Source: Dysgonomonas sp. BGC7 (GTDB lineage: Bacteria > Bacteroidota > Bacteroidia > Bacteroidales > Dysgonomonadaceae). From it: DNA of 64,000 nucleotides. Shown piece after piece: positions 57,064-58,166 of the stretch. A program made the translations under genes and the position numbers. The stretch lies in contig NZ_CVRP01000003.1 in NCBI RefSeq assembly GCF_001261735.1, forward strand, positions 62,001 to 126,000, written 5' to 3'. The stretch's first letter is position 1. Every line of letters begins with the position of its first letter. The notes below the pieces were generated by a model. The model searched no databases. It saw only the letters and a list, made by a program, of their open reading frames with translations, and had not been told where the DNA came from.

Positions 57064-57567
57064 CTATCCCAATCGCAACTTGTCTCTGAATTTTTCAAGC
57101 TCATCCTTTGTCTTGCTATCGGCTACTGTAACCATAAAAGGCACGTCTAAACGGTTTTCCTGATCGTTGCTTATCGAATTAAGTTCGAGCAAGCGACTAA
57201 CAAAACTAGAATTATATGCTCCTATAATAGCGCCCTCTGTCTGATTTTGACAAATAGTATCCAGTATATGCTGTGCAGCACCTTTCATATCGTCCGACTT
57301 GAGATAAGTCCTGAATATAGACTCATTGATATTACAATAGACACACAGACCGGCAAGCGTGTATGGTCTGGTTACAGGTATTTCGACAATTTCACCTTTA
57401 CGATCACCCGATCGCTGCAATTCCTTTTTTGTCCATGGATTGTCTTCGCACCATGCAAAATATTCGAAAGCAGCCGACAAGAACGCATCAGGGTCTTTGT
57501 AATCTTTTATCGTTTGTACAAACTTCTTTTTTCGGCTACTGCATCTTTTATTCTTTTCGCTCTGCAT
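57064..57567 (-). CDS. Terminase small-subunit-like (DNA-packaging gp3-type) protein
   Basis: 167 residues, basic at the N-terminus (RCSSRKKKF). Residues 22-140 read like small terminase subunits of Bacteroidales phages: DPDAFLSAAFEYFAWCEDNP, RPYTLAGLCVYCNINESIFR (a helix-turn-helix-like stretch) and ILDTICQNQTEGAIIGAYNS. The C-terminus is amphipathic (TKDELEKFRDKLRLG). No large terminase, portal or capsid genes are near, so this is a stray or domesticated phage gene or part of a small satellite. It overlaps the upstream gene (TAATG), the third cistron of the island. Confidence 0.7.
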   Translation of the reverse strand: MQSEKNKRCSSRKKKFVQTIKDYKDPDAFLSAAFEYFAWCEDNPWTKKELQRSGDRKGEIVEIPVTRPYTLAGLCVYCNINESIFRTYLKSDDMKGAAQHILDTICQNQTEGAIIGAYNSSFVSRLLELNSISNDQENRLDVPFMVTVADSKTKDELEKFRDKLRLG

Positions 57568-57836
57568 TATTCTTTTATTTTTCGTCCTGATTTTTTCTTC
57601 TTTACGCCTGTTGAAGTGCTCTTTACAGAGGGTATGTTTTCCTCATTTTGGTCTTCGAGCCATTTTCTGAGTTCTCTCACTTTGCGAATAAGGCAACTGG
57701 CACACGACTGGGGAGTCTCATTTTTATCAAACACTCTGTTCGCTACATCATATATCTTACTCATGGAGTAACGATGAGTTTTATCTACTTCGGCCAATAA
57801 CTGCTCTACTTCTGATTTTAATTCAATTTTACTCAT
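57567..57836 (-). CDS. Small charged protein of the phage-like island
   Basis: 89 residues, not recognised. It is helical, with a basic Lys-rich tail (TGVKKKKSGRKIKE) typical of DNA- or RNA-binding proteins, and one C-A-S-C pair (about 45-48). Its ATG is the last of a tandem repeat array, and its stop overlaps the start of the terminase-like gene, so its translation is coupled on both sides. The role is unknown; a DNA-binding partner of the terminase-like protein is a reasonable guess. Confidence 0.65.
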   Translation of the reverse strand: MSKIELKSEVEQLLAEVDKTHRYSMSKIYDVANRVFDKNETPQSCASCLIRKVRELRKWLEDQNEENIPSVKSTSTGVKKKKSGRKIKE

Positions 57837-57910
57837 TTTATTATCATTTTATTATCATTTTATTATCATTTTATTATCATTTTATTATCATTTTATTATC
57901 ATTTTATTAT
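57834..57910 (-). repeat. Seven 11-base tandem repeats forming overlapping minigenes
   Basis: Seven perfect copies of CATTTTATTAT on the plus strand. On the minus strand, the coding strand of the island, each unit supplies an ATG, then ATA-ATA-AAA, then TGA overlapping the next ATG. The array starts inside the last five codons of the membrane-protein gene and its last ATG is the start of the 89-residue gene; five complete M-I-I-K minigenes lie between. Confidence 0.9.
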
Positions 57911-58166
57911 CTATATATTTAAGTACAAAAAATACTGCGAACGACAAAATAAACCCAATATAAAATACCAATTCGCAAGTTAAGACCAATGCACACACAG
58001 CTGACAAACACCACATTATATGGAACGACAGACACGGGCGGCAGTTGAAAGGTTTACAATCGAGGGCGGAAAACAATTCGGGCAAATGCAATGAAAGGAA
58101 GCTACCCCAATAAACAGAAGCCGAAATGATAATTGCAAGTATCACAAAGATTGAAAATGTATCCAT
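57888..58166 (-). CDS. Small membrane protein of the phage-like island
   Basis: 92 residues with about three hydrophobic segments (6-24, 46-62, 65-85), and cysteines in LDCKPFNCRPCLSFH (about 35-49). It is not recognised; size and topology recall holins or small ion channels, but nothing supports either firmly. Its last residues, NKMIIK, are encoded by the first copy of the downstream 11-base repeat, and its TGA overlaps the following minigene ATG. It is the first gene of the island; no promoter consensus was seen upstream. Confidence 0.6.
   Translation of the reverse strand: MDTFSIFVILAIIISASVYWGSFLSLHLPELFSALDCKPFNCRPCLSFHIMWCLSAVCALVLTCELVFYIGFILSFAVFFVLKYIDNKMIIK

Follow-up and report, generated by a model that had tools for sequence, protein, structure and literature searches.

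The junction between the genes for a hydrophobic 92-residue protein and for the 89-residue protein encoded downstream of it carries seven perfect tandem copies of an 11-bp unit, through which a chain of four-codon minigenes joins the two reading frames by successive ATGA overlaps. With moderate confidence, we read this array as a private slippage expansion of an ATGA overlap that is conserved in the genus, across which some ribosomes restart while others initiate directly at the downstream gene.

Anatomy of the junction and its genes

Tandem Repeats Finder returned period 11, 7.2 copies, 100% matches and a score of 158 for the array, against a next-highest score of 54 in the window (the whole 64-kb stretch of DNA that was analysed). 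The seven perfect 11-base repeats claimed in the earlier note are therefore present, and the limits it gave (57834..57910, against 57833-57911 here) are right to within one base at each end. On the minus strand, the 92-residue ORF ends ...IDNK-M-I-I-K-TGA, with its stop inside the first unit. Every stop/start step of the chain that follows is an ATGA overlap, so that six consecutive overlaps run via five minigenes to the last ATG of the array, which is the start of the 89-residue ORF, exactly as had been described from the letters alone. The membrane-protein stop and the 89-residue start are 51 nt apart, and -4 overlaps link the two only through the minigenes. Each ATG of the array has A at -3 and at -6. 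Downstream, the 89-residue gene and the third gene are joined by a 1-nt TAATG overlap (Table 1).

Table 1 Features of the array and of the three genes around it (coordinates of the window)
Feature	Position	Strand	Basis
11-bp array, seven perfect units, ATAATAAAATG on the coding strand	57833..57911	-	Tandem Repeats Finder and sequence; single genome locus
Upstream 92-aa gene for a probable membrane protein, motif KPFNCRPC	57888..58166	-	ORF list; stop TGA 57890-57888 inside array
Minigene 1, ATG ATA ATA AAA TGA, start 57891; ATG overlaps membrane-protein stop	57877..57891	-	Sequence
Minigene 2, start 57880	57866..57880	-	Sequence
Minigene 3, start 57869	57855..57869	-	Sequence
Minigene 4, start 57858	57844..57858	-	Sequence
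Minigene 5, start 57847; stop overlaps start of 89-aa gene	57833..57847	-	Sequence
Downstream 89-aa gene (HRYSMSKIY...PQSCASCLIRK), no known family; start codon 57836-57834	57567..57836	-	ORF list, homologue searches
Third gene, phage terminase small-subunit-like (GP3_package), 167 aa	57064..57567	-	PF16677 E 1.4e-15; phrog_606 E 2.3e-23

The 92-residue protein had no PHROG match and only sub-threshold matches in Pfam and NCBIfam; from its hydrophobic sequence it is probably located in the membrane. Every homologue located at the junction, in a search that used this motif, contains KPF(N/S)CxPC, which includes a CxxC; the protein is without a family. The 89-residue protein had no convincing match in Pfam, PHROGs, NCBIfam or PDB and apparently represents an undescribed family, with a strongly conserved core (HRYSMSxIY and PQSCASCLIRK) that likewise includes a CxxC. 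The CxxC pairs encoded by these neighbouring genes suggest that their products could be partners.

On the IMG/VR contig L057, a NinG/Rap endonuclease and a 199-residue ORF without a family match precede the gene pair, a terminase small subunit and, on the other strand, an integrase follow it, and replication genes occur in the region, so that the pair there belongs to a prophage-like element. The third gene is GP3_package (PF16677) in the window, L002 and L010, and Terminase_2 (PF03592) in L015 and L057; in some loci no terminase-like third gene follows the pair. In the window, the operon has an alpha-L-fucosidase and a DUF4890 protein as neighbours, and looks like a phage-derived piece standing alone.

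A single overlap in the genus and its probable expansion

The search for the 89-residue protein covered 101 genomes, 100 relatives plus the window's own, and matched it in 27, comprising 20 of the 25 genus genomes, own included, and seven genomes outside the genus; a second, named collection gave 22 loci with this protein (18 Dysgonomonas and 4 Prevotella), many of them the same records. When one genome per species was considered, the best two homologues were 65% and 72% identical to it. Nineteen other genus members had a match, of which 18 could be read, G023 being cut by a contig end. After the loci had been oriented and their junctions read, exactly one ATGA overlap was found in 17 of these 18. 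This comes close to the supporting test proposed in the earlier note, the coupling layout being kept as a single overlap amid different sequence; a multi-step relay is not conserved, since neither the array nor more than one overlap was present in any of the 18 readable genus relatives. The lone relative without the overlap (G004) has a membrane-protein stop that begins 48 nt upstream. Outside the genus, the overlap occurred in none of nine loci (seven genomes), in which 7 to 127 nt separate the genes. Three IMG/VR loci from the viral_contigs collection also carry the single overlap; the IMG/VR locus L058 is not independent of L011, 2,264 identical bases being common to both.

These junctions point to the single ATGA overlap as a genus trait and likely the ancestral layout; the array, of which the window's genome is the sole instance found, would most simply be a derived state. 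Where relatives have the overlap, their membrane protein has the C-terminus I-D-N-K-K-(I/V)-(T/I)-K or variants of it and, owing to AT-rich codons near the junction, the two successive 11-mers found there resemble each other: of 20 loci with the overlap, 14 have 7-9 of 11 positions identical and the remaining six 4-6 of 11. Among the five best-scoring relatives, four have a pair that is 9/11 identical; in the window the identity is complete.

We propose that the array arose from an ancestor whose membrane-protein and 89-residue genes overlapped once, by the 4 nt ATGA, and in which the codons around the overlap would have become, in this lineage, a perfect 11-bp direct repeat. Replication slippage between the repeats, which we infer, no relative having an intermediate copy number, would then have led to seven units. 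Such an expansion could be tolerated because all three reading frames of the array stop repeatedly and each unit, supplying both a stop and a restart, closes with a new ATG, so that a change in copy number alters neither protein: the upstream protein would end in the first unit whatever the copy number, and the downstream protein would start at the last ATG. The idea in the earlier note that copy-number change keeps coupling intact can be upheld, by reasoning on the sequence, for the stop/start geometry and for both proteins; coupling as such, in this species, is something we infer from the conserved overlap.

The array does not reflect chance. The pattern (ATGAN7)3ATGA matched four times in the window, each time within the array, and never in 100 dinucleotide-preserving shuffles; the whole 4.32-Mb genome contained the same four matches only, and an array 25-mer had five overlapping matches in the genome, all at the array locus. 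This 25-mer was absent from viral_contigs, and the phage and plasmid collections contained neither the array nor the 89-residue gene, although all of these, and likewise the genome_contigs collection, may omit records at or near the window's genome.

A perfect seven-copy repeat, with a unit that is not a multiple of three in length yet is frame-neutral, and with a number of terminate-restart steps that scales with copy number, would suit a contingency rheostat, in which frequent slippage sets the number of such steps and thereby grades, in subpopulations, the ratio of the 89-residue to the membrane protein, leaving both proteins unaltered. Like phase-variable contingency loci, the array is a perfect tandem repeat of a short unit that lies within or next to coding sequence; the commonest, though not the only, kind of contingency switching is a copy-number frameshift, which the array would not give, all three of its frames being stopped. 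We regard a rheostat as improbable, given that the array is in no readable relative, that the genes look phage-derived and are not a typical contingency target, and that only two other perfect arrays were found in 400 kb of the genome, window included (scanned by script for units of 4-60 bp in at least 4 copies, which returned the 11-bp array, (AGGAAA)4.2 and a TC run).

The search for ATGA chains elsewhere gave matches to (ATGAN7)3ATGA, that is at period 11, in 51 of 393 Bacteroidales genomes, and to chains at periods 14 and 8 in 47 and 42 of 198 Bacteroidales genomes, respectively. We examined 50 clusters at period 11, 34 at period 14 and 30 at period 8, taken from 30 loci of each search together with 20 selected regions at period 11. 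Among the 50 period-11 clusters, five had an upstream ORF of at least 60 residues ending on the chain and three a downstream ORF starting on it. An upstream stop and a downstream start on the same chain were found in the window's own cluster only, and in none of the 49 other period-11, 34 period-14 and 30 period-8 clusters examined. Clusters inside an ORF of at least 120 residues numbered 0, 6 and 5 at periods 11, 14 and 8, most clusters being degenerate and outside long ORFs. A control with the pattern reversed likewise matched some 30 genomes, by a count made by eye, which shows short periodic arrays as such to be common. A class of ATGA relays was therefore set aside, the window's own being alone, among the clusters examined, in bridging at both ends.

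Degenerate tandem arrays, mostly intergenic, are found in many Bacteroidales genomes; their short non-triplet units contain TGA or TAA, such as an 11-bp ATGACNAYYGA, a 7-bp ATGAAYA-like and an 8-bp ATGAAACA-like unit. Period-11 pattern matches reached 102 in one genome (G178) and 113 in another (G203), and in the 11-bp arrays variation seems, by eye, confined to fixed positions. The loci concerned are L060-L066, L068-L089 and L110-L129 for period 11, and L130-L189 for periods 14 and 8; a few of them look like chance matches. These arrays are possibly akin in kind to the TAACTGA heptamers, as far as the available part of their description goes (PMC4679880).

Since degenerate 11-bp arrays lie between genes in other Bacteroidales, the repeat might be an array of DNA- or RNA-binding sites, one per helical turn, in which the reading frames are coincidental. 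This is very unlikely: the arrays of other Bacteroidales differ in sequence, none of the 49 other period-11 clusters examined bridges two ORFs, and the array in the window has no imperfect copy, keeps in step with the frames of the two genes and is similar to coding sequence in the relatives.

Possible restart and direct initiation at the 89-residue gene

According to the accessible portion of a study of Bacteroidetes (PMC6847099), initiation in this phylum does without Shine-Dalgarno sequences and is modulated by adenines upstream of the start and by the absence of structure, start selection may need little beyond an unstructured leader, and AUG is depleted around starts. In the window's genome, Shine-Dalgarno-like motifs were present in 4 of 293 gene contexts (genes of at least 150 residues, with starts from a naive ORF caller), and the contexts were A-rich from -14 to -3. 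The array RNA had a predicted minimum free energy of 0 kcal/mol, i.e., no predicted structure, which makes fresh initiation plausible at any AUG of the array, the last included.

The unstructured array RNA, the modest needs of Bacteroidetes starts and the restriction of the array to the window's genome are all consistent with a neutral slippage accident without any relay, in which 30S subunits initiate directly on the A-rich unstructured leader and the minigenes are incidental. We see this as a real but lesser possibility, because the overlap is kept in 17 of the 18 readable genus relatives, suggesting that coupling matters, and because six extra AUGs in suitable context should compete for 30S subunits.

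Six AUGs lie in the 66 nt upstream of the 89-residue start, versus none or one in the same interval in 26 of 26 other loci counted (a count that leaves out L019, L026, L028 and L029, which lack the start-placing motif, and L027, which is cut) and at most four among the 293 other contexts of the genome. Together with the depletion of AUG near Bacteroidetes starts (PMC6847099, in its available part), this excess could mark a decoy leader, in which upstream AUGs capture ribosomes and lower expression of an 89-residue gene that is on its way to decay. Such a decoy is unlikely, since each one ends on the next start, so that captured ribosomes can be handed on, and since the core of the 89-residue protein lacks signs of relaxed evolution. 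An alignment of the other ten homologues has 24 invariant columns, all of which the protein keeps, and over a 50-codon core the mean pN to seven outgroup loci (nonsynonymous distances only) is 0.207, versus 0.176-0.275 for seven relatives; dN/dS was 0.06-0.12 in three of 26 comparisons, synonymous sites being saturated in the rest. Unless the array expanded very recently, the conserved columns and the in-range pN speak against decay of the gene since then. This conservation is as expected if the gene were still expressed, and it does not tell which translation route feeds the gene.

A further route would be a promoter inside the membrane-protein gene, for which there is a weaker candidate at 57934, with one mismatch per box and 20-nt spacing. 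TTTG-(18-21)-TAnnTTTG, a Bacteroidetes promoter consensus, was absent from the 484 nt upstream of the 89-residue gene in a scan that required exact TTTG and allowed at most one mismatch in TAnnTTTG, with 0.3 occurrences expected in shuffles.

The per-step losses that can be set against a relay come from E. coli, which commonly uses Shine-Dalgarno sites. In the available parts of the published work, strict coupling was the outcome for 13 of the 14 overlapping pairs tested in E. coli and Haloferax (PMC6728339), and 24.7% of upstream ribosomes continued across a UAAUG junction in an E. coli reporter (PMC9955659); six steps at 24.7% each would, by calculation, leave about two in ten thousand ribosomes. 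Reinitiation is nearly lost across gaps of 38 nt in three E. coli pairs and of ~22 nt in Haloferax, in the excerpted results of one study (PMC10666635), and a review, in its accessible text, reports a longer reach in other E. coli studies, adding that the coupling mechanism is not firmly established and that functional work is mostly on E. coli (PMC12548453). The distance dependence published for E. coli and Haloferax disfavours a direct jump over 51 nt, and under the published limits a plain 51-nt insertion should weaken coupling or uncouple the genes; in the array, an AUG overlaps every stop. The final 15 nt of the native sequence upstream sufficed for coupling in the available account (PMC10666635), but behind a long reporter, so that this result is no evidence that four-codon ORFs couple. 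The literature searched, mostly titles and abstract openings with few subscription papers, contained no natural tandem chain of ATGA-linked minigenes; nor did what was accessible of it include a demonstration of -4 coupling from an ORF as short as four codons, or per-step figures for ATGA in Bacteroidota.

The case for a relay rests on the stop/start geometry, by which a terminating ribosome would meet, at every unit, an AUG overlapping its stop. As the only route to the 89-residue gene, a six-step relay is unlikely: the per-step losses in E. coli make a pure relay implausible, unless the steps are far more efficient here. Direct initiation on the A-rich leader may matter as much as the relay. 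Our preferred reading is therefore a mixed one, in which the gene is probably reached by restart for some ribosomes and by fresh initiation on the A-rich unstructured leader for others, a picture that we consider likely.

Phage lambda bar minigenes sequester tRNA, and the AUA-rich minigenes of the array might do the same, a titration of peptidyl-tRNA that the earlier note had also raised. Short minigenes can be toxic through slow recycling of peptidyl-tRNA, an effect that weakens as minigenes get longer and is smaller with UGA than with UAA as the stop, according to the available part of the source (PMC8708949). In sampled genes, AUA makes up 4407 of 8847 Ile codons (50%) and AAA 5843 of 8283 Lys codons, so scarcity is improbable; the proposal is weakened to the point where we give it hardly any weight.

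Relation to known systems and significance

The array has the same stop/start geometry as -4 (ATGA) termination-reinitiation overlaps, which in the accessible text of the papers describing them comprise one overlap per gene pair, as against six consecutive ones via five minigenes. The closest precedent found is the mycobacterial interspersed repetitive unit (MIRU), which has an ORF at -4 to the next gene, as the array minigenes have, a likeness of geometry only; in the available text of the review, MIRUs are apparently mobile and present in many mycobacteria (PMC12548453), whereas the 11-bp array occupies one locus and resembles the junction of its relatives. Being at a single locus, it is not classed as a MIRU. 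The leader minigenes of axe-txe mg2, LEE1, ycbK and baxL/argL are also mini-ORFs that lie immediately upstream of a gene or overlap it and can alter its translation; in the accessible part of their description, they number one or two per leader, several have a Shine-Dalgarno sequence, and no tandem chain is mentioned (PMC8708949). The TAACTGA heptamers, reported from Beggiatoaceae, Cyanobacteria and five Bacteroidetes, are, like the array, short non-triplet tandem units beside genes, but dispersed and mostly intergenic in what is available of their survey (PMC4679880), whereas the array occurs once, at the very place of a coding overlap. The ATGACNAYYGA-type arrays of Bacteroidales are similarly dispersed, degenerate and between genes, in contrast to an array with a different unit that is found at a single locus and bridges two ORFs.

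The array is thus real, and its origin is probably derived and plausibly explained; its regulatory role is putative. Its proposed history suggests that repeats can expand safely within a coding overlap, in that whole units that regenerate ATGA spare both the proteins and the stop/start geometry. If the rheostat were true, it would provide a graded protein ratio between coupled genes in a phylum that ignores Shine-Dalgarno sequences. With its six identical ATGA steps following one another in a leader that lacks structure and Shine-Dalgarno sites, a setting in which local restart, scanning and fresh initiation predict a different dependence on the number of steps, the array is a small natural test of ribosome restart.
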